A stretch of 55,384 bases of DNA from Nitrospira sp. Lineage in GTDB: Bacteria > Nitrospirota > Nitrospiria > Nitrospirales > Nitrospiraceae. The position numbers and the translations under genes are program-made. The stretch is taken from NCBI GenBank assembly GCA_019636815.1, contig JAHBWT010000016.1, positions 1 through 55,384 on the forward strand, given 5' to 3'. Of this stretch, positions 10,860 through 24,686 are shown piece by piece (the stretch's first letter is position 1; every line of letters starts with the position of its first letter). The notes under the pieces were generated by a model that saw nothing but the letters and a program-made list of their open reading frames with translations, was not told the origin of the DNA and did not search any database.

Positions 10860-11606
10860 TTACGAAGGTTTTCCTTCACTGTCCTCGGAAATGTTACAGG
10901 ATGTTGGCGTTGCAGACTGACGCATCTCGGTCTGTGTCAGGACGTTGCCGGTCTGCACCACGTCAGTCTGCACCAAATGAGAAGCGACTCTTTCATAGAG
11001 CGACACGAACTCTTGTGAATTGAAGTCATAGACCCATACATCCCCCGTTGAAATGGAATAGACCCAGCCATGGAGATCGACTTTTCCCTTACGCAGCTGA
11101 AGCACGACGGATGGATGTGTACGCAGGTGCTCAAGCTGGACGCGGACATTCTCCTGAATCGTCTTGATGAGCCGATCGTTGCCTTTGACGTCTGGGTAGA
11201 GCTCGCGCATCAAGCATCTGGTGGTTTCAACCTGTCCCACCCATTCCTTGACCGCCGGCAGGTTTTGTACCTCCTCAGGATTTAAGAGAGCTTTCATGAC
11301 ACCGCAATCGGTATGGCCGCAGACAATCACGTGAGGTACCTTCAACACCGCCATCGCGTATTCTATCGTTGCCGTGGTGCCGCCCTGCATCGAGCCATAG
11401 GGCGGCACAATATTACCTGCATTTCTCAAAATAAACAGTTCACCTGGATCAGCCTGCGTCAGAAGCGTAGGGTCGACTCGCGAGTCAGAGCAGGTAATGA
11501 AGAGCGCGCGAGGGGCTTGACTTTGGGACAGCCGCGTGAATAACGCTTTCTTATTCCCGAATACTTCACCGCGAAACTTCAAGAAGCCTTTGACAAGCTT
11601 TTCCAT
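10860..11606 (-). CDS. Beta-class carbonic anhydrase
   Basis: Interconverts CO2 and bicarbonate. All hallmark residues are present: zinc ligands Cys39, His98 and Cys101 (ITCSDSRVDP and VCGHTDCGVM) and the catalytic Asp41-Arg43 dyad; the segment LFILRNAGNIVPPYG is typical. The 248-residue length fits the family. Of two close ATGs, the one at 11606 is preferred because a GAGG lies seven bases upstream; the ATG at 11612 is too close to it. The gene follows the SulP-carbonic anhydrase fusion by about 50 bases on the same strand, so the two are probably co-transcribed as an inorganic-carbon unit. No signal peptide is seen, so it should be cytoplasmic. Confidence 0.92.
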   Translation of the reverse strand: MEKLVKGFLKFRGEVFGNKKALFTRLSQSQAPRALFITCSDSRVDPTLLTQADPGELFILRNAGNIVPPYGSMQGGTTATIEYAMAVLKVPHVIVCGHTDCGVMKALLNPEEVQNLPAVKEWVGQVETTRCLMRELYPDVKGNDRLIKTIQENVRVQLEHLRTHPSVVLQLRKGKVDLHGWVYSISTGDVWVYDFNSQEFVSLYERVASHLVQTDVVQTGNVLTQTEMRQSATPTSCNISEDSEGKPS

Positions 11607-11657
11607 GATCATGCCTCATTCTGATCACCAACTGATCGGCGCGACAGGCTATGTCGA

Positions 11658-13913
11658 TCATCGATTTCCTTCATTTTCGCACGCGTCACCGCACAAGAAT
11701 TCGACTTCTCCCGTGACGACATCGTACATCGCGCCGCCGACGGCAATCTGTCCATTTCTGATAAGACCATCGAGTGTCCTGCTTTGCTTCTGCAGTTGTT
11801 CAATAACTCGCCCGACATTGCGTCTGGCCACACTATCGATCAGCGCTCTCGCCTCTTCAGAAGATGGCTCGTGCAAGGTCCGACACATTGCCGGATCGAT
11901 CGCTTGCTGGAGATCGTTAACGATGGAATCGAGATGTTCGCATCCCGTCGTCTTGACGCCTGTCCGGGATGAGCTCAGGAGCTTGATCGCTTCAGAAACC
12001 GCGCCACATCGCGTATGCCCCATAACAAGTATCAGTTTGGCTCCAGCCACAGCACACCCATATTCCGCACTGGCGATCACCTCCCGACTCGAAACATTGC
12101 CGGCAATACGAACACTGAAGATATCCCCCATGCCGAGATCAAACACCCGCTCGGCGGGCGTCGGAGAATCAATGCAGCTAAGGACGACGGCCAACGGATG
12201 TTGCGCTTCAGCCGTGGCTCGGACCTGGCGCGTGAAATCTCGAGTCAGGCGTCGGTCGGTGCGAACACGCTCATGGCCATCTTTTAGGATTTGCAGGACT
12301 TGCTGGGGAGTAATGGCCTCTTGGAGTTCACGGGTGGAATAATCCACATAGTGAATCTGGTTCTCAAAATTGTACTCGCTCTGAAACCCGACAAGACTGA
12401 CTTCGACACCGTGAACCGGTCCTGTTTGTTCCTTGAAGTCCCGGATCAGATCGAGCACATCCGGGTCGATATAGTCCGTGCTCCGCGCATCGAGGAGGAC
12501 ACGGCCATTGCGAGGCACCTCATTCAGCGCTGCAGCAAGTGCGGCGCGATTTAGAAAGCTGACCTGGTTGGCCAACTCGATATGCAAAACATCGCCGCCC
12601 AAATGTTTTTCCACAAATCGATGCACCGGACGACGCATACTACTGTTGAGGATGAAGCCGACAGCCACGACGAGCCCGATTATGATACCGATCAAAAGAT
12701 CGGTGAACACGATGGCCGTCACGGTTGCCGCAAATGGAATGAACTGGTAGCGCCCCTCGTACCACATTTGTTTGATCAGGGCCGGACTCGCCAGCTTGAT
12801 CCCGGTCATCAGCAAGATCGCGGCAAGACAGGATAATGGGATGGTATTGAGCCATGCCGGGATGAGCGGCACGCTCACCAGCAGCAAGGCGCCGTGCACA
12901 ATCGTGGCAAGTTTTGTTTTTCCGCCGGCGTTGACGTTCACGGAGGTGCGAATGATCACGGAAGTGACCGGGAGTCCACCGACCAGCCCAGACGTGACAT
13001 TCCCGATGCCTTGCGCCAGCAGTTCTTGACTTGGAGGCGAGATGCGTTGCTGCGGATCAAGTCGATCAGCTGCATTGAGATTAAGTAAGGTTTCCAGAGA
13101 GGCCACGATCGCAAGAGTCAACGCAGCGGTATAGACAGCAGAATTAGTCAACTGCGAAAAGTCCGGTCGTGGAAGAAGCCCTACAAGCTCAGATAGGTTA
13201 CCGGCGACAGGCACTTGAACAAGATGACTCGGTTCGATCAGCCAGGGCTCCCCGAGTTGCTGAAACCACAAACTCGCTCCGATACCGAACAGTACCACCG
13301 CGACAGGGGCTGGAAAGAGGGAGGTCTTCAGCGGCTTCCAATTATCCCAGAGCACAAGCAGGGCAACGGAAGCCAAACCGACGATGGCGGCCCCCAGTTG
13401 AAAGTCTCCAATCGTCAACAGCAGTTCCGAAAATGTTGTTTCGAAGTCCGGCTGAAAAAACGACATGTCTCCTTCCGGATCCCGATCATGCCCGACGAGA
13501 TGTGGAATTTGTTTAAGGATGATGATCACCCCGATCGCTGCCAAGAGCCCTTTGATCACGCTGGATGGAAAGAACGCGGCGATGAACCCTCCCTTCGCGA
13601 CCCCGAGGCCGATTTGAATGAAGCCTGCAAGAATCAAGGCCGTCAGAAACGCTGAGAAAGAACCCAGTGAGAGGATTTGAGCGGCGACGACCGCCGTTAA
13701 ACCGGCGGCCGGTCCGCTCACACTGGTGTGTGATCCACTGAAAAGCCCAACCACAATGCCGCCGATAATTCCGGCCAGTAATCCGGACAGCAATGGTGCG
13801 CCGGAAGCAAGCGCAATCCCGAGACAGAGGGGCAGCGCTACAAAAAACACCACGAGGCCTGATTTGACATCAGCAAAGACGGTACCCGTGGATATGCCGT
13901 TGGGAGTACGCAT
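11658..13913 (-). CDS. SulP-family anion/bicarbonate transporter fused to STAS and carbonic-anhydrase-like domains
   Basis: A 751-residue inner-membrane protein in three parts. Residues 1-420 form the SulP transporter core (VFADVKSGLVVFFVALPLCL, SHTSVSGPAAGLTAVV, TLAIVASLETLLNLNAADRL), residues about 440-530 a STAS domain (ISFLNR-like strand, VLLDARSTDYIDPDVLDLI), and residues about 555-740 a beta-carbonic-anhydrase domain (VVLSCIDSPTPAERVF, IFSVRIAGNVSSREV, VMGHTRCGAV). SulP-CA fusions are thought to couple bicarbonate import with CO2 hydration. Odd point: the zinc ligands Cys580, His633 and Cys636 and Asp582 remain, but the dyad Arg is Pro584 (DSP for DSR), so the domain may be impaired or have a sensing role. 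The stand-alone carbonic anhydrase lies just downstream. Confidence 0.88.
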   Translation of the reverse strand: MRTPNGISTGTVFADVKSGLVVFFVALPLCLGIALASGAPLLSGLLAGIIGGIVVGLFSGSHTSVSGPAAGLTAVVAAQILSLGSFSAFLTALILAGFIQIGLGVAKGGFIAAFFPSSVIKGLLAAIGVIIILKQIPHLVGHDRDPEGDMSFFQPDFETTFSELLLTIGDFQLGAAIVGLASVALLVLWDNWKPLKTSLFPAPVAVVLFGIGASLWFQQLGEPWLIEPSHLVQVPVAGNLSELVGLLPRPDFSQLTNSAVYTAALTLAIVASLETLLNLNAADRLDPQQRISPPSQELLAQGIGNVTSGLVGGLPVTSVIIRTSVNVNAGGKTKLATIVHGALLLVSVPLIPAWLNTIPLSCLAAILLMTGIKLASPALIKQMWYEGRYQFIPFAATVTAIVFTDLLIGIIIGLVVAVGFILNSSMRRPVHRFVEKHLGGDVLHIELANQVSFLNRAALAAALNEVPRNGRVLLDARSTDYIDPDVLDLIRDFKEQTGPVHGVEVSLVGFQSEYNFENQIHYVDYSTRELQEAITPQQVLQILKDGHERVRTDRRLTRDFTRQVRATAEAQHPLAVVLSCIDSPTPAERVFDLGMGDIFSVRIAGNVSSREVIASAEYGCAVAGAKLILVMGHTRCGAVSEAIKLLSSSRTGVKTTGCEHLDSIVNDLQQAIDPAMCRTLHEPSSEEARALIDSVARRNVGRVIEQLQKQSRTLDGLIRNGQIAVGGAMYDVVTGEVEFLCGDACENEGNR

Positions 13914-14970: not shown

Positions 14971-16320
14971 CTACGAATGAGCCGGCGGACATGTCGTTTG
15001 TCTCGTGTCCCGCCCAGGACCTCTGGTCACCTCAATCCGTGCAACCTGTTTCACATTGGCGCACAGATCACCGAGACCCGGTGTCACGAGCCGAAACGGA
15101 CCACCGTTTGCCTCCGGCAACGCAGACCCGGCCAGCTCGTAGACAAGCACTCCGTACTCTTTCGCCTGCTGAAGCGTGAGGCAAGCAGAATACTTTCCAT
15201 CCCAGGCATGAAAGGCGACATGGTCTGCCCCGATTGCTAAAGCTGGAACATCGAGTAACCCTTTCAGCCGAATCCCCCGCCCCTTCATGCCTGGCATCAC
15301 CGTAGACACATCGAGCTGATACTCTTTCGGCAACGCAGCAATTGCCGCGCGATCGAGTGAGACCGGTTGAACGACCGCGCCTTCGATCCGAATTCGGCCA
15401 GGGCCGACTTGTTCTTTCTCCGTGATCGTCTTGATCATGGCCGTCAATGCTTCGTTCACCGGCGTTGGAATACCAAGCTTGCGTCCCCGCTCGACGACAA
15501 AGCCGTTTAAATAATCGATCTCCGTCGGTCGGCCTGCTTTCCAATCGTCATACATGGAGGTATGAATGTCGCGAATCTCCTGTGTCGCTTTCACAACTCG
15601 CTCCGGCATATCCAGCGGCAGCGGCACTTTCAATGTGGCCGAGACTGCCGCCACTTCCCCGACAATCTGCCGGATTACACCCGTCATCTCCGGATGATCG
15701 AGCGCTTTGGCCACATGGTCGTCGATGAGCACCGTGATCGGGTTAAAGACACAATTCCAGCACATCTTTTCCCATTTGGCACGGCGAATGTCCCTCGACA
15801 ATTGGCAAGAAATGTCAGCGGAGGCAAACAGCTCACGAATCTTGAGCAGCCGCTGGCTCTCCATCCCCATCAATTCACCGATGGCCACCGCCCCCTTTTT
15901 ATAATGGTCGATGACGCCCGGTTCGGCAATCTTCGAATAGATGTAGGCCACTCCACCGACGACACAATCGCGATTGAGTCGAGCCAGAATTCGGTCTTCC
16001 GTATCGATACCGTTTTGCAATGTCAGAATGACCGTGTCGTCCGTAAGGACCGGCTCAAGTTGGTCGATCACGTGATCGAGGTCGTAGGCTTTGACGCCAA
16101 GGACAATGAGGTCCGGCTTTGGAAATTCCCGTGGATCCGACGCAACTGGTGGTCGGACCGTGAACGATCCACCGGCACTTCGAATGGTCAGGCCCTTCTG
16201 TTTAATGACATCACAAGTTCTGGTCCTGAGAAGAAACGAAACATTCGGATTATTCTTTGCCAAGTGGGCCCCGAAGAACCCGCCGACCGAGCCGGCTCCA
16301 ACAACTAGGACCTGCTTCAT
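14971..16320 (-). CDS. 2-dehydropantoate 2-reductase (PanE/ApbA family) fused to a molybdopterin-oxidoreductase-like domain
   Basis: A 449-residue protein in two parts. Residues 1 to about 310 are a complete ketopantoate reductase: the NADPH-binding VLVVGAGSVGGFFGAHLAK, LIVLGVKAYD, ILTLQNGID, the Lys-containing RRAKWEKMCWNCVFNPI and the C-terminal helices with GRPTEIDYLNGFVVERGRKL. PanE makes pantoate for pantothenate and CoA. PanE proteins are normally about 300 residues; here about 125 more follow (LDRAAIAALPKEYQLDVST, HAWDGKYSACLTLQQA, LPEANGGPFRLVTPG), resembling the sulfite-oxidase-type molybdopterin-binding domain. The usual Mo-ligand cysteine region is not recognisable, so cofactor binding is doubtful. 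The gene is divergent from cobB with about 90 bases between. Confidence 0.82.
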   Translation of the reverse strand: MKQVLVVGAGSVGGFFGAHLAKNNPNVSFLLRTRTCDVIKQKGLTIRSAGGSFTVRPPVASDPREFPKPDLIVLGVKAYDLDHVIDQLEPVLTDDTVILTLQNGIDTEDRILARLNRDCVVGGVAYIYSKIAEPGVIDHYKKGAVAIGELMGMESQRLLKIRELFASADISCQLSRDIRRAKWEKMCWNCVFNPITVLIDDHVAKALDHPEMTGVIRQIVGEVAAVSATLKVPLPLDMPERVVKATQEIRDIHTSMYDDWKAGRPTEIDYLNGFVVERGRKLGIPTPVNEALTAMIKTITEKEQVGPGRIRIEGAVVQPVSLDRAAIAALPKEYQLDVSTVMPGMKGRGIRLKGLLDVPALAIGADHVAFHAWDGKYSACLTLQQAKEYGVLVYELAGSALPEANGGPFRLVTPGLGDLCANVKQVARIEVTRGPGRDTRQTTCPPAHS

Positions 16321-16411: not shown

Positions 16412-17146
16412 ATGGCACACGGATCGGATTTGTCATTATTGAAGGAACGGCTGGCGGGTGCCGAATCGGTCACCGTTCTGACTGGAGCCGGCATCTCAGC
16501 GGATAGTGGTGTTCCGACCTTCCGTGGCAAAGACGGACTCTGGCGCACGCACCGCGCCGAAGATCTGGCCACACCGGAGGCTTTTGCGCGCGATCCACGC
16601 CTTGTTTGGGAATGGTACAACTGGCGGCGCGAGCTGATTGCCGCCAAGCGACCCAATCCCGCTCATGATGCAGTCGTCGTACTGGAGCGACGATGCCGGA
16701 GCTTCTGGCTTATCACTCAAAATGTAGATGGGCTCCATCGGGATGCCGGTTCGCGTAAGCTTTCAGAGATTCACGGCAACATTTGGATGGTGCGCTGTAC
16801 CGAGTGCAGTCGGGTCGTGGAGAACCGAGATGTCCCTATTCATATTCTCCCCGTCTGCCACCACTGTCGCGGCCTCCTGCGCCCTCATATCGTATGGTTT
16901 GGGGAATCGCTAGCGGATGAAGACCTTCGGCACAGCTATGCGGCGCTTCGTTCCTGCAGCCTCTGCGTGATCATTGGCACATCCGGGCTCGTGTATCCGG
17001 CTGCAGGATTCGCCTCTATGGCGAAAGAAGCCGGCGCATTCGTAGCTGAAATCAATCTGGATCCCACGCCACAGTCAGCGCTGGTCGACGTGTCACTACA
17101 AGGCCGTGCCAAAGACATCGTTCCGTTACTGCTCGATCCGATCTAG
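16412..17146 (+). CDS. cobB: NAD-dependent protein deacylase, Sir2 family (SIRT5-like)
   Basis: Removes acyl groups from protein lysines using NAD+. Signatures: VTVLTGAGISADSGVPTFRG (NAD-binding GAGxS), ITQNVDGLHRDAG, catalytic His in EIHGNI, a zinc ribbon (VRCTECSR and PVCHHCRGLL) and IIGTSGLVYPAAGF. The substrate-site motif WEWYNWRRE supplies the Tyr-x-x-Arg pair that in CobB and SIRT5 binds negatively charged acyl groups, so desuccinylase or demalonylase activity is likely (family knowledge, not shown). At 244 residues it is a normal short bacterial sirtuin. Its last 21 bases overlap the 3' end of the convergent HAD gene. Confidence 0.92.
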   Translation: MAHGSDLSLLKERLAGAESVTVLTGAGISADSGVPTFRGKDGLWRTHRAEDLATPEAFARDPRLVWEWYNWRRELIAAKRPNPAHDAVVVLERRCRSFWLITQNVDGLHRDAGSRKLSEIHGNIWMVRCTECSRVVENRDVPIHILPVCHHCRGLLRPHIVWFGESLADEDLRHSYAALRSCSLCVIIGTSGLVYPAAGFASMAKEAGAFVAEINLDPTPQSALVDVSLQGRAKDIVPLLLDPI

Positions 17147-17851
17147 CAGGGGGATCAGCTCCCCCAAGTTCTTAAGAGTTGGAACGTCGGGTTGTTGCTG
17201 TCTTCCGTCACGGTCCACGAGAGCGGCATGCAGCCCGGCTTTCCGTGCACCCTCCACATCCTCCCGTATACTATCTCCAACATGCAGGGCCTCTCCCGGC
17301 TCGACTGCATGCTTCTCCAATGCGATGCGGAAAATCCTGGGAGCCGGTTTCGCGGCTTGCGCCAAACTTGAGATCGTCATGGTGTCAAAACTGTCCGCAA
17401 TTCCCAGCCCTCGCATCACCGTGAATAAACGCGAGTCAAAATTCGAGATGATGCCAAGCTCCAGATCCCGCGCTTTGAGCTGCGCCAAGATGGCCGTTGT
17501 TTCAGGGAACAACCGCCACGCTCGGTGATCCTCAAACGCGTGAAAGACCTGATCGAAGAACTCATCGAATCGCTGGAACATACCCACCCGGTAGAAGACA
17601 TGATGAACGATATCGAACCACCAGAGTCGCTCGCTCTGTTTGAGCTGAGCAGGGTCGGTGACGGCGAAAATCGGGGGAGGAGCGTCATGGAACGCACGGC
17701 GAAAGGCCTGAGCGATCTCGGTTACCGAGTCTGGTCTCCGGCGAAACCCAAATTGAACGGCATGTTGAAGATACATCTCCGCTACCGAGCCATGCACATG
17801 AAACAGGGTATCGGCAGCGTCAAAAAATACGACTCGTATTGAACGTGTCAT
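17126..17851 (-). CDS. HAD-superfamily hydrolase (HDHD3/DREG-2-like)
   Basis: A 241-residue haloacid-dehalogenase-like phosphatase with a helical cap. Motif I is VVFFDAADTLF, motif II LGIISNFDSR, motif III the Lys in AAKPAPRIF, and motif IV LHVGDSIREDVEGARKAG. In motif I the second Asp of the usual DxDxT is Ala, as also occurs in the HDHD3/DREG-2 subgroup, so classical phosphatase activity should not be assumed. The substrate is unknown. It converges on cobB with a 21-base overlap, and its 5' end faces the receiver gene across about 140 bases, a likely divergent promoter region. Confidence 0.8.
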   Translation of the reverse strand: MTRSIRVVFFDAADTLFHVHGSVAEMYLQHAVQFGFRRRPDSVTEIAQAFRRAFHDAPPPIFAVTDPAQLKQSERLWWFDIVHHVFYRVGMFQRFDEFFDQVFHAFEDHRAWRLFPETTAILAQLKARDLELGIISNFDSRLFTVMRGLGIADSFDTMTISSLAQAAKPAPRIFRIALEKHAVEPGEALHVGDSIREDVEGARKAGLHAALVDRDGRQQQPDVPTLKNLGELIPLLDRIEQ

Positions 17852-19387: not shown

Positions 19388-22147
19388 ATGACTCCGATTC
19401 AACTGGACAAAACCTACGACCCAAAAACCGTCGAAGCTCGATGGTCACAAGAATGGATCGCTCAGGGGTACTTCCATACCTCACCGGAACGATCTGGCCG
19501 ACCATACAGCATCGTGATTCCTCCGCCAAATGTGACGGGGTCCCTCCATGTCGGGCACGCGCTCAACCATTCATTACAAGACATTCTGATCCGGTGGCGG
19601 CGCATGCAGGGACGAAACACCTTATGGCTGCCGGGAACTGATCACGCCGGAATCGCTACGCAAAACGTCGTTGAGAAACAAGTGATGGCCGAAGGCGCTT
19701 CGCGCGAGTCACTCGGCCGGGAGCGGTTTATCGAACGAGTCTGGCAGTGGAAGGCTACCTCGGGTAACACGATCGTCAATCAACAGAAACAATTGGGCGA
19801 ATCCTGCGACTGGGACCGCCTCCGTTTCACGATGGACGAGGGGCTGTCTCAGGCAGTTCTCGAGGTATTCGTTCGACTGTATGAAGACGGATTGATCTAC
19901 CGGGGCGAACGACTCATCAATTGGTGCCCCCGCTGTCTGACGGCGCTGTCGGATATTGAAGTGGAACACGAGGATGTCAAAGGCAAGCTCTATTCAATCC
20001 AATATCCACTGGAAGGCGATCCTTCCACGAAACTCACCGTCGCCACTACGAGACCGGAGACGATGCTAGGCGACACAGCCGTCGCCGTCCATCCTGAAGA
20101 TGCCCGTTTCAAGCATCTTATCGGCAAGCGTGTACGACTCCCGTTGACGGATCGCACGATACCGATCGTGGGCGATGGCATTCTCGTCGATCGGGAGTTC
20201 GGTACCGGCGCCGTAAAAATTACCCCGGCGCATGATTTCAGCGACTACGATGCGGGTGAACGGCACCAGCTTATGAGAATTCGCATCCTAGACATCCACG
20301 CGAATTTACTCAACGAATCCGAATTGCGCCTAGCTACAAAGGCAACACCCGACACTGTAGCTGCATTAGCAGGCCTGTCTACGCAAAAAGCCCGTATAAA
20401 AGTTGAGCAACTACTTGCGGATCGAGACGCTCTGGAGAAAGTCGAACCCCATAAGATGTCGATAGGGAAATGCTATCGCTGCAAAACGGTTGTTGAGCCC
20501 TATCTCTCCATACAATGGTTTGTAAAGATTGGGCCGCTTGCCGAACCGGCAATCAAAGCTGTCGAAGATGGTCGCATCCGGATCATTCCGGAAGGCTGGG
20601 TCAACAACTATTTCGGCTGGATGCGGGACATCAAAGATTGGTGCATTTCACGACAAATCTGGTGGGGACACCAAATCCCGGTATGGTATTGCGAGCAATG
20701 TAGCGGAGGTTTTCTCAGAAGTACACACGATCATAGGCCGCTTATCGGTCTCGATGCGAAACCTATCGTTGCAAAGTCAAAACCGGAACGATGCTCTCGC
20801 TGTGGAAGTGCCGATCTGGTTCAAGATCCCGACGTGCTCGATACCTGGTTCTCCTCCGCGCTGTGGCCTTTTTCCACGTTGGGGTGGCCGGAACAGACAC
20901 CGGAACTCAAGACGTACTACCCAACTTCCGTGCTTGTAACCGGGCTCGACATTTTGTTCTTTTGGGTGGCCCGGATGATCATGATGGGCTTGAAGTTCAT
21001 GGGAGACGTCCCCTTCCGCGATGTCTACATTCACGCCCTGGTCCGTGACGCGGAAGGAAAGAAAATGAGCAAGTCGAAAGGGAACGTCATAGACCCGCTC
21101 CATGTCATGAATGAGTTTGGAACCGATGCGCTTCGCTTCACGCTCGCCTCGATGGCTTCACCTGGTCGGGATGTCAAGTTGGCGGAAGAACGGATCGAAG
21201 GGTATCGAAACTTTGCCAACAAGATTTGGAACGCGGCCAGATTCGCTCATATGTATCTTGACGGCCCGCGCTCGCCTCTCCCGGTCTCTCAGCGGACGAT
21301 TCCAGATCGTTGGATCCTCAGTCGGCTGAACCACGCCATCAAGACTGTCACGGCGGAATTAGAAGGGTATCGCTTCGATCGAGCTTCCAACGCCCTGTAT
21401 CATTTCATTTGGCATGAGTTCTGCGATTGGTATCTGGAACTGATCAAGCCGGTCCTCCAGGTTGCCGACCACCCCGATGGACCCGCAACAAGAGCCACGC
21501 TGATTGAAACCATGGAAACCACCATGCGCCTGTTGCATCCGTTCATGCCATTCATCACGGAAGAGCTCTGGCAGACGTTTCCACATCAAGGCCGCAGTAT
21601 CGTGACCCAAGCGTATCCGATGGAAGAACCATCATGGGACTCATCCGAAGCCGAGCAACTGTTTGCGCTCATTGAGCAAACGGTCAACTTGGCTCGGACC
21701 GGTCGTGTACTCCTGAATTATCCGCCGGGCCAGCCCATCACATGCCACCTGTCTCATGAAGACACAACAAAACAGAACCTCCTCAACCAGGTTCTGCCCC
21801 ATGCGGCCCATCTTGGTCGAGGTACGTTTAAGAATATGGCGCGCTCAAGCTGGCCGTCGCACCAACTGCTCAGGCTGGTCGCAGAGGGGCTCTCCGTCGG
21901 AATCAACGTGTCCGGTGAAGTGGACCTCCACAAAGCACTCGATCGTTTGGACAAGCAACTCTCCGAGGTCGAGCGAGAATCACAGCGCCTAAGCGGTAAG
22001 CTGAACAATCCCGACTTCGTCTCCAAAGCTCCGCCTGAGGTCATTGCCGATCATCAGAGCCGCCTCCGCTCGCTCGCGCAAGATTCCAGCATGTTGATCA
22101 GTAGTGAACGGCAGCTGCGATCCATGCTGGAGCCCGATCAACCGTGA
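19388..22147 (+). CDS. valS: Valyl-tRNA synthetase
   Basis: Charges tRNA-Val with valine. The 919-residue class I synthetase shows the HIGH-type motif IPPPNVTGSLHVGHALNHS near residue 45, the editing (CP1) domain with TTRPETMLGDTAVAVHP, the NWCPRCLTALSDIEVEHE segment, and the KMSKS loop GKKMSKSKGNVIDPL near residue 557. The C-terminal anticodon-binding region ends in a coiled coil (LDKQLSEVERESQRLSGKLN) as is usual for bacterial ValRS. A second Cys pair region (CYRCKTV, CEQCSGG, CSRCGSAD) is a zinc-knuckle insertion. The 3' end overlaps the nadC start, so the two are translationally coupled. Confidence 0.97.
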   Translation: MTPIQLDKTYDPKTVEARWSQEWIAQGYFHTSPERSGRPYSIVIPPPNVTGSLHVGHALNHSLQDILIRWRRMQGRNTLWLPGTDHAGIATQNVVEKQVMAEGASRESLGRERFIERVWQWKATSGNTIVNQQKQLGESCDWDRLRFTMDEGLSQAVLEVFVRLYEDGLIYRGERLINWCPRCLTALSDIEVEHEDVKGKLYSIQYPLEGDPSTKLTVATTRPETMLGDTAVAVHPEDARFKHLIGKRVRLPLTDRTIPIVGDGILVDREFGTGAVKITPAHDFSDYDAGERHQLMRIRILDIHANLLNESELRLATKATPDTVAALAGLSTQKARIKVEQLLADRDALEKVEPHKMSIGKCYRCKTVVEPYLSIQWFVKIGPLAEPAIKAVEDGRIRIIPEGWVNNYFGWMRDIKDWCISRQIWWGHQIPVWYCEQCSGGFLRSTHDHRPLIGLDAKPIVAKSKPERCSRCGSADLVQDPDVLDTWFSSALWPFSTLGWPEQTPELKTYYPTSVLVTGLDILFFWVARMIMMGLKFMGDVPFRDVYIHALVRDAEGKKMSKSKGNVIDPLHVMNEFGTDALRFTLASMASPGRDVKLAEERIEGYRNFANKIWNAARFAHMYLDGPRSPLPVSQRTIPDRWILSRLNHAIKTVTAELEGYRFDRASNALYHFIWHEFCDWYLELIKPVLQVADHPDGPATRATLIETMETTMRLLHPFMPFITEELWQTFPHQGRSIVTQAYPMEEPSWDSSEAEQLFALIEQTVNLARTGRVLLNYPPGQPITCHLSHEDTTKQNLLNQVLPHAAHLGRGTFKNMARSSWPSHQLLRLVAEGLSVGINVSGEVDLHKALDRLDKQLSEVERESQRLSGKLNNPDFVSKAPPEVIADHQSRLRSLAQDSSMLISSERQLRSMLEPDQP

Positions 22148-23022
22148 AGCTTCCGGCAGCAGAAATCCGTCGTGCCGTGCGCCAAGGGCTAGAAGAAGAT
22201 TTGGCCCAAGGAGATGTGACGACCTCCGCGCTCTTTTCGTCTTCGGTACCTGCCACGGCCAACATCATTGCACAGCAGCCATTGATTGTGGCGGGAATGG
22301 CGGCGGTCGTTCAAACCTTTCTGCTCGTTGATCCTTCCCTTCAATTATCGGTGTGCAAACGCGACGGCGACCGGGCCAAGAAGGGACAGCCGCTCATACG
22401 GATCGAAGGTGATGGCCGATCGATCCTCCGGGCTGAGCGGGTTGCCTTGAACTTTCTTCAACACCTGTCCGGCATCGCCACACTGACACAACGATTCTGT
22501 CGGGCAGTGCGCGGCTACCCTGTCAGCATTCTCGATACCAGAAAAACTCTCCCTGGTTGGCGCGCACTTCAGAAATGGGCCGTATCGCTCGGCGGCGGGA
22601 TGAATCACCGTCGGTCATTGAGCGATGGTCTTCTCATCAAAGACAACCATCTGGCTTTTCTGCAGAAGGAGCGGCGTCCGGTTGAAAAAGCTTGTCGGTT
22701 AGCACGCGGGAATCGGCCGACTGACCTTCCGATCATGGTCGAGGTGGAGTCTCTCTCCGAGATTCATCAGGCCTTGGCAGGAAACCCAGAGATCATTCTC
22801 TTGGACAACATGGCTCCGAGCATGGTCAGGCGTGCCGTCGGTATCATCAAGAAGAGGGCGCTGGTCGAAGTGTCGGGCGGCATCACGCTCAAGAACGTCA
22901 GAGTCATGGCTGCGGCCGGCGCCGATCGCATCTCGATTGGAGCGCTCACCCATTCCGCCCCGGCCGCAGCCGTCAGCCTGATTGCAACACTGCCCCAACG
23001 CGTACGCCGCAGACGCTCCTAA
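22144..23022 (+). CDS. nadC: Nicotinate-nucleotide pyrophosphorylase (quinolinate phosphoribosyltransferase)
   Basis: Converts quinolinate and PRPP to nicotinate mononucleotide in de novo NAD synthesis. The sequence has EDLAQGDVTTSALF, LRAERVALNFLQHLSGIATLT, ILDTRKTLPGWRALQKWAV, GGGMNHRRSLSDGLLIKDNH and the C-terminal VEVSGGITLKNVRVMAAAG and DRISIGALTHSA, all diagnostic of NadC. Length 292 is normal. It begins with GTG inside the end of valS (GTGA overlap), and birA follows three bases after its stop, giving a tight valS-nadC-birA-coaX operon. NAD made here is also the co-substrate of the window's sirtuin, though nothing links them in regulation. Confidence 0.96.
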   Translation: MKLPAAEIRRAVRQGLEEDLAQGDVTTSALFSSSVPATANIIAQQPLIVAGMAAVVQTFLLVDPSLQLSVCKRDGDRAKKGQPLIRIEGDGRSILRAERVALNFLQHLSGIATLTQRFCRAVRGYPVSILDTRKTLPGWRALQKWAVSLGGGMNHRRSLSDGLLIKDNHLAFLQKERRPVEKACRLARGNRPTDLPIMVEVESLSEIHQALAGNPEIILLDNMAPSMVRRAVGIIKKRALVEVSGGITLKNVRVMAAAGADRISIGALTHSAPAAAVSLIATLPQRVRRRRS

Positions 23023-23025
23023 CCC

Positions 23026-23865
23026 ATGGCTTCTTCTCCTCCTCTCAGCATCGATGATATTCGCACCACCCTGGAAACCACGTCGCTCGGTCACCCTCTC
23101 TACATTTACCGAGATCTCGCCTCGACAAATAGGGAAGCCTTCAGGCTGGCACAAAACGGAGCTGCGCACGGTACTGTCGTGCTCGCCGAAAGCCAATCAG
23201 ATGGATACGGTCGACATGGGCGTCCTTGGTTCTCACCGCCAGGGCTGAACCTCTATTGCTCCGCTATTATCCGCGGAACAGGACTGAGGATCTCCCTTGC
23301 GCACTGGCTATCTTGGACACCTCTCATCAGCGCACTGGCCACTGCTGAAGCCGTTCAACAGGTCACGACTGTCTCGCTGGCGCTCAAGTGGCCCAATGAC
23401 TTACTTCTGCTCCAGCGGAAAGTCGGCGGGATTCTCTGCGAAAGTCTGCTCCAGTCACCCACCGATCCGGCCATCGTCATTGGAATTGGGCTCAACGTGA
23501 ATGTTGCGCGGGAGGCTTTTCCAGATGATCTGCTCCCTATTGCAGCATCATTGGCCGAAACATCTCAGCAACCGATCGACCGCAATCGACTGGTCGCGCA
23601 GTTATTGCTGGAACTCGAGCATTGTCTGGGCGAGCTTCAGTCTCATGGATCGCCCAGATTACGACAAGCCTACATTGCTCGCTGCGCCACACTGGGTCGT
23701 CAGGTTCGGGTCCAGTTCACGACTCATGACCAGGTCACTGGGGTCGCGGAAGGCATTTCTGCCGATGGTGCTCTCCAGATACGACCCCTGTCACCCCGTT
23801 CCTCCTCGCAACCGGCGCATTTGCTTGACGTTCGTGCCGCTGATGTGATTCATCTACGGGAGTAG
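23026..23865 (+). CDS. birA: Biotin--[acetyl-CoA-carboxylase] ligase, without DNA-binding domain
   Basis: Attaches biotin to the biotin carboxyl carrier protein. Family motifs: YIYRDLASTNREAFRLAQNG, ESQSDGYGRHGRPWFSPPG (the biotinyl-AMP loop, GYGRHGRPW in place of the commoner GRGRRGRxW), LKWPNDLLLLQRKVGGILCE and IGIGLNVNV. At 279 residues it lacks the N-terminal winged-helix repressor domain of E. coli BirA, so it should be a pure ligase (group I) and not a repressor. A small C-terminal beta domain is present (TLGRQVRVQFTTHDQVTGVA). It lies in the valS-nadC-birA-coaX run with almost no spacing. Confidence 0.93.
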   Translation: MASSPPLSIDDIRTTLETTSLGHPLYIYRDLASTNREAFRLAQNGAAHGTVVLAESQSDGYGRHGRPWFSPPGLNLYCSAIIRGTGLRISLAHWLSWTPLISALATAEAVQQVTTVSLALKWPNDLLLLQRKVGGILCESLLQSPTDPAIVIGIGLNVNVAREAFPDDLLPIAASLAETSQQPIDRNRLVAQLLLELEHCLGELQSHGSPRLRQAYIARCATLGRQVRVQFTTHDQVTGVAEGISADGALQIRPLSPRSSSQPAHLLDVRAADVIHLRE

Positions 23866-23897
23866 CGAAACGGCACCGCGCCGAGTACAATGCGCAC

Positions 23898-24686
23898 ATG
23901 CTGCTGGCGGTCGACATCGGGAACACCAACATCGTCGCTGGAATTTTCGATGGAACGCGTCTCCTCGCGCATTGGCGGCTGGCCAGCGATCCAAAGGCCA
24001 CAGCCGATGAGTACGGGGTGCTCTGTCTCAGTCTCATGGCCAGAGGCGGCCACACCCCCGAACGCATCACTGGAGCGATTATTTCAAGCGTCGTTCCTAC
24101 CCTCACTGAAACGTTCGAATCAATGATTGAAAGGTCCTTTCATCATACCCCGATAATCGTCTCATCTGAGATGGATACGGGCCTGACGCTCAAGTACTTG
24201 AATCCCAGGGAAATCGGGAGCGATCGCATCGTGAACGCCGCGGCGGCCTATCACAAATTTCGGCGCGATCTCATCATCGTTGATTTCGGTACGGCTACCA
24301 CGTTTTGCGCCGTGACTCATGTCGGCGAGTATCTGGGAGGCGTCATCGCGCCAGGCTTGGCTATTTCGGCAGATGCGCTGTTCGTCCGCGCTGCAAAGTT
24401 GAGCAAAGTTGAACTGGTCCGACCCAAGACCGTCATCGGTGTCGATACGGCCAGCAGCATTCAGGCGGGACTTGTCTTTGGCTATGCAGGTCTCGTCGAT
24501 GCGCTCATCCAGCGCATGGAACTGGAAATGGGACACCGCTCCTCTGTGATCGCCACGGGTGGATTGGCTCCGGTAATTGCGCCTGAGGCTCGATCCATTC
24601 AGCATATCGAACCGTTTTTGACTCTGGAAGGACTTGAGCTTCTCTATCGGCGCGCCCGCGGTGCGGACGTTAGCCCATGGGTTTAA
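23898..24686 (+). CDS. coaX: Type III pantothenate kinase
   Basis: First committed step of coenzyme A synthesis, phosphorylating pantothenate. The N-terminal ATP-binding motif MLLAVDIGNTNIVAGIFDG, the segment LNPREIGSDRIVNAAAAY, the DFGTATTFCAVTHVGEYLGG region and GGVIAPGLAISADALF identify the CoaX (type III) family, which needs a monovalent cation and resists CoA feedback. Length 262 is normal. The ATG lies 33 bases after birA; grpE follows 88 bases later. With coaE and a PanE-like protein in the same window, three CoA-pathway steps are represented. Confidence 0.95.
   Translation: MLLAVDIGNTNIVAGIFDGTRLLAHWRLASDPKATADEYGVLCLSLMARGGHTPERITGAIISSVVPTLTETFESMIERSFHHTPIIVSSEMDTGLTLKYLNPREIGSDRIVNAAAAYHKFRRDLIIVDFGTATTFCAVTHVGEYLGGVIAPGLAISADALFVRAAKLSKVELVRPKTVIGVDTASSIQAGLVFGYAGLVDALIQRMELEMGHRSSVIATGGLAPVIAPEARSIQHIEPFLTLEGLELLYRRARGADVSPWV

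Follow-up and report, generated by a model that had tools for sequence, protein, structure and literature searches.

A gene of Nitrospira sp. encodes in one protein an apparently active ketopantoate reductase (PanE) and a C-terminal domain of the sulfite oxidase (SO) fold that lacks the molybdenum (Mo) ligand Cys, and this fusion is almost certainly real. It lies in the window, the whole stretch of 55,384 nucleotides that was analysed, and is laid out as follows.

14971..16320, minus strand: whole fusion gene, 449 amino acids, ATG start (open reading frame without internal stop; 100% self match).
15412..16320, minus strand: PanE part, residues 1-303 (PF02558, PF08546, TIGR00745, alignment with E. 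coli PanE).
15019..15399, minus strand: SO-fold domain without the Mo-ligand Cys, residues ~308-434 (Pfam, alignments, AlphaFold model, structure and profile matches).
15019-15279, minus strand: match to PF00174, residues 348-434 (Pfam).
14974..15018, minus strand: C-terminal tail of the fusion, GPGRDTRQTTCPP, found in place of the His-rich tail of standalone relatives (alignment).

The plus strand of 14971-16320 is interrupted by stops. A search of the genome shows that the fusion is present in a single copy and is the sole PanE. In its PanE half, Pfam recognizes ApbA at residues 4-150 (7e-37) and ApbA_C at residues 177-299 (2e-34), and the TIGR00745 match (1e-77) is above the curated cut-off. 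Residues K77, N103, K185, N189, N193, S255 and E267 match the active-site set of E. coli PanE, in which K176, E256, N98, N180 and S244 are aligned with K185, E267, N103, N189 and S255 of the fusion. With the catalytic set intact, the PanE half is apparently an active ketopantoate reductase. Its substrate, ketopantoate, is probably made, since PanB is also encoded in the genome. Thus, residues 1-303 resemble PanE/ApbA proteins above curated cut-offs and with all the checked active-site residues kept, but a standard PanE stops near residue 300 and the fusion adds a domain of 140 amino acids.

The original prediction, that this additional segment is similar to PF00174, is borne out by a significant domain search: the Oxidored_molyb match at residues 348-434 scores 49.5 bits (gathering score 24) with an E-value of 4.7e-13, and the C-terminal 139 amino acids scanned alone against Pfam match PF00174 with an E-value of 6.8e-14. 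The motifs that had been quoted, including NGGPFRLVTPG, are present in the sequence. The Mo-ligand Cys is also missing, as had been proposed. At the Mo-ligand column of the alignment, Cys is found in none of the 12 Nitrospiria C-domain sequences, which have T, K, R, A, V or S instead, but in all 4 Cys-type controls (the SorA-like L002 of this genome and three small proteins of haloarchaea); the segment bearing this Cys in SO is shortened in the C-domain. We therefore infer that the domain does not work as a Mo enzyme. Among 16 diverse fusions, residues H367, D374, G406, G407, R410, L411, P414, D418, C420, A421 and K424 are invariant, three of which are located as follows.

15091..15093, minus strand: R410, the invariant Arg of GGPFRL, equivalent to Arg in the GxPxRL motif of SO (alignments).
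15061..15063, minus strand: C420, the invariant Cys of DLCANVK, common to the haloarchaeal small SO homologues (alignments).
15049..15051, minus strand: K424, an invariant Lys at the place of the K in SO VKW and of Trp160, a pterin contact, in PruR (alignments; PruR by eye).

The equivalents of R410 (GxPxR) and K424 (VKW) contact the pterin cofactor in SO structures. The domain is predicted to be cytoplasmic, because a Rossmann domain opens the fusion and the fold comes first in the standalone forms.

A single open reading frame of ~450-490 amino acids with both parts is found in 74 of the 79 sampled Nitrospiraceae genomes (a hand count over the phylum sample). The fusion is present in nearly all the sampled Nitrospira, in other Nitrospiraceae genera and in families f2, f3 and f4 of Nitrospirales; N. 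moscoviensis and N. defluvii, whose chromosomes are finished, carry it too (L078 and L093). In pairwise comparisons, the PanE part has a dN/dS of ~0.04-0.10 and the C-domain one of ~0.05-0.16, values that are rough as dS is near saturation; judged from them, both halves are under purifying selection. The original prediction had allowed that the fusion might be absent from close relatives or be caused by a frameshift; it is instead near-universal in close relatives. Because it occurs in nearly all relatives and is under purifying selection, the fusion is neither due to chance nor to a sequencing frameshift. One MAG (Nitrospira RSF5, L034:5880-6347) does have an in-frame stop exactly at the junction of PanE and the C-domain, either a mutation or a sequencing error, but the same single reading frame recurs in ~100 or more genomes, including complete chromosomes, and selection acts on both parts, so that an assembly or frameshift artefact, or a read-through of two genes, has a negligible probability and was rejected. 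Within the sampled phylum the fusion is seen in the order Nitrospirales only, and the scan of genome contigs gave only Nitrospirota among the 80 loci listed. None of the plasmid records has both parts or covers 80% of the query, and the scan of viral contigs for the fusion gave no match. Judged by this distribution, the fusion is lineage-specific yet old, at the level of the order Nitrospirales.

Two neighbours of the fusion are conserved.

16412..17146, plus strand: Sir2-type gene, divergently transcribed, conserved neighbour at 78 loci (family named by eye).
17126..17851, minus strand: HAD hydrolase, conserved neighbour at 79 loci, a relative of which also adjoins the separate panE in sister families (neighbourhood comparison).

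In the same neighbourhood comparison, no Moco or Dsr genes adjoin the fusion.

AlphaFold models were built on a shallow alignment of 32 similar sequences. The C-domain model has a pLDDT of 75.9 and a pTM of 0.72; the full-length model, of low quality in the helical domain of PanE, is too weak for judging the domain interface. The C-domain model matches SO-family structures with a VIA Z of ~12.5 (up to 12.7) and PruR structures (7kos, 7kou, 7rkb, 7kp2 and 7kom) with Z of 10.5-10.9 and rmsd of 2.7-2.9 over ~116-121 residues. The PruR match spans almost the entire small protein (Foldseek E-values 3e-4 to 3e-3), and the sequence profile of the C-domain also matches 7kom (E-value 6e-6, profile positions 12-117). 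PruR, which has no Mo-ligand Cys, binds reduced pterins, and its site is probably too small for Moco (PMC13259868).

The C-domain and PruR (7KOS, 7KOM, 7KP2, 7RKB) share an SO fold of ~140 amino acids without the Mo-ligand Cys but differ in several respects. The pterin contact Trp160 of PruR is K424 here (aligned by eye), PruR has Trp in the place of the Mo-ligand Cys and the Nitrospiria domains do not, and R410 is kept here whereas PruR has a residue other than Arg. D374 and Y/F377 lie near the places of Asn/Asp102 and Tyr/Phe104 in PruR, shifted by one residue. PruR has a secretion signal, whereas the domain here trails a cytoplasmic Rossmann enzyme, being fused to PanE; and PruR adjoins a DcpA/DTB regulator gene, whereas the neighbours of the fusion are Sir2-type, HAD and other genes. 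Membership in PruR is not claimed, since the defining residues and the genomic context fail. With the SO family (SorA, SoxC, YedY/MsrP) the domain shares PF00174, the fold and the GGPxRL and VK motifs, but here the Mo-ligand Cys is replaced, the Cys-bearing segment is shortened, there is no dimerisation domain and the predicted location is cytoplasmic. The likeness to Moco carriers (MCP/MoBP) is one of possible role only, Moco/MPT binding without catalysis: the fold of known MCPs is Rossmann-like (PMC9571131), in contrast to the SO fold here.

Taking sequence, model and analogy together, we tentatively favour the explanation that the C-domain is a cytoplasmic, Mo-less SO-fold module for ligand binding, probably of the pterin/molybdopterin type, with a regulatory or carrier role through its tether to active PanE. 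The domain would act like PruR, its Mo-free SO fold holding a pterin-type ligand, which would more probably be phosphorylated, as are molybdopterin and Moco; tethered to PanE, it would sense or carry this ligand and so modulate or co-localise the formation of pantoate. The chances that it binds a pterin-type ligand seem about even; that ligand binding affects PanE is rather more doubtful. Pterin binding, which the original prediction had suggested alongside a regulatory or interaction module, gains plausibility because the structures nearest to the domain include PruR, a Mo-free pterin binder with this fold, and a phosphorylated pterin (molybdopterin or Moco) may be at least as likely a ligand as a free pterin, because the SO-type Arg and Lys, lost in PruR, are kept. 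One putative bridge between pterin and pantoate is that methylene-tetrahydrofolate, which PanB uses in making ketopantoate, is a pterin; a second is the dependence of nitrite oxidisers on a Mo enzyme, hence on molybdopterin. Points against the favoured explanation are that Trp160 of PruR is not conserved, that the place of the Mo-ligand Cys is not Trp, that the Moa gene run described below is found in one genome only, and that the domain is dispensable, being lost together with PanE in one genus and alone in one genome.

The relatives of the domain outside Nitrospirales are informative about its origin. In sister families f7, f8 and f10 of the same class, the domain is encoded by a separate gene of 172-201 amino acids with no evident export signal, and PanE, where present, by a separate gene of ~300-390 amino acids without the domain. 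These standalone relatives match PF00174 at positions 10-163/169. A His-rich tail with 9-29 His is found in all 14 standalone copies examined outside Nitrospirales, whereas the fused forms end in GPGxDTRP without the His tail. That the domain exists in sister lineages as an independent, His-tailed gene was not part of the original prediction. Three f7 genomes (G207, G287 and G333) have panE and a HAD gene at a distance of ~2-4 kb from the domain gene. This proximity, together with the related HAD gene conserved beside the fusion, suggests that the fusion most likely arose by joining two genes of one neighbourhood, after which the His tail was lost. In one of these genomes (L182:10744-13160, G333), a transposase-like reading frame splits the separate panE near the standalone domain gene.

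Other standalone copies are found in different contexts, adjoining panE/HAD, a DsrE-like trio or rTCA genes. In one genome only (G205, L168), the domain gene is the last in a same-strand run of MoaC, ABC ATPase, ABC permease, MoaDE, phosphatase and domain, in which Pfam recognizes MoaC (2e-55) and MoaE (1e-33). At two f7 loci (L164:2485-3427 and L181:8155-9115), a DsrE-like trio (TusBCD/DsrEFH type) is divergent to the His-tailed domain gene; its first member matches DsrE (4e-10), the second is below the cut-off and the third has no match. Homologues on haloarchaeal plasmids (L176-L178) were considered as the same subtype and rejected, as they keep the Mo-ligand Cys; these are small, Mo-enzyme-like SO homologues of 139-179 amino acids beside DUF2249, NifU/redoxin or cobalamin-synthesis genes. 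The inspected plasmid matches from Rhizobiales and Paraburkholderia adjoin cytochrome b genes, like exported Mo enzymes.

The two halves of the fusion can also come apart. Two genomes, G048 (98% complete, two contigs) and G042, have the domain alone, of 148 and 147 amino acids, and no PanE; the domain of G048 lies near a Sir2-type gene, like the fusion in the window, and its congeners G058 and G275 carry the fusion. Conversely, G040 (L126:6150-7109) has an intact PanE from which the domain was lost by an in-frame deletion; both flanks survive and meet at KARTAR...THGPGQDTKP. PanE and the domain are both absent from genus g3 (f3), and the four tested Nitrospiraceae genomes without the domain (G238, G246, G248 and G267) all lack PanE too. 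Since the halves come apart, the domain has a value of its own and PanE can be kept without it, and since G048 and G042 keep the domain without PanE, its function need not concern PanE. PanB with no recognizable PanE is seen in genus g3 and in G042, G045, G048, G205, G171, G211 and G265; in such genomes, IlvC (ketol-acid reductoisomerase) may cover the PanE step.

The main rival to the favoured explanation is that the domain is a carrier or chaperone handling metal, sulfur or Moco, unrelated to pantothenate, and that the fusion ensures co-expression or is neutral. The tails of all 14 standalone relatives, which are of a metal-binding type, the Moa gene run of one relative, the DsrE-like trio beside some copies, the invariance of C420 and the persistence of the domain without PanE in G048 and G042 are all in its favour. 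However, the fused forms have lost the His tail, the fusion adjoins no Moco or Dsr genes, and PanE and the domain have been lost together in several genomes. We regard such a handling role as less likely than the favoured explanation. Ranked third, and somewhat less probable again, is a ligand-free structural module on PanE, serving oligomerisation or docking of a partner. Some of the invariant residues fall in motifs with a part in shaping the fold, and the structural matches of the C-domain include 9a64, titled an integrative YLAL-SDHA crosslinking model, so that docking of small SO-fold proteins on other oxidoreductases seems possible; but the invariance of the polar H367, D374, R410 and K424 goes beyond the needs of a pure scaffold, and G040 has a clean PanE without the domain. 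A catalytic Mo module, making the protein a bifunctional oxidoreductase, is very improbable and was rejected despite membership in PF00174 and similarity to SorA, SoxC and YedY, since the Mo-ligand Cys is absent from all the aligned family members and the domain is small, without the SO-type dimerisation domain.

The favoured explanation, a tethered ligand-binding module, can be carried further to a more specific proposal, which we consider improbable as it stands: that the domain is a cytoplasmic sensor of molybdopterin/Moco or reduced pterin, derived from a His-tailed protein that handled Moco or metal, and that it allosterically couples the synthesis of pantoate, and through it of coenzyme A, to the status of pterin cofactors in nitrite oxidisers. 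If this were true, the SO fold would serve as an intracellular regulatory pterin module; and if the domain binds pterin, Mo-free binding of the PruR type would extend from periplasmic signalling to metabolic enzymes. The fusion appears to put the SO fold to a new, intracellular use without molybdenum, joined to a central vitamin enzyme (pantoate being the precursor of B5/coenzyme A), in an order, Nitrospirales, that includes the main nitrite oxidisers. The His-tailed, Moa-adjacent relatives offer a way into the study of a protein, possibly undescribed, that would handle Moco or metal. We found no description of the fusion, of the Cys-less, His-tailed standalone family or of the Moa linkage in the open-licence literature; the PanE and PF00174 families themselves are known.

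Several other genes in the window were named by eye. NadC-, BirA- and CoaX-like genes are found at 22144-24686 on the plus strand, ~8 kb from the fusion; CoaX (type III pantothenate kinase) is another step of coenzyme A synthesis. On the minus strand, 11658-13913 encodes a SulP-type anion transporter-like protein of 751 amino acids with a carbonic-anhydrase-like C-terminal domain, and a separate beta-type carbonic anhydrase gene (10860-11612, minus strand) directly follows it.
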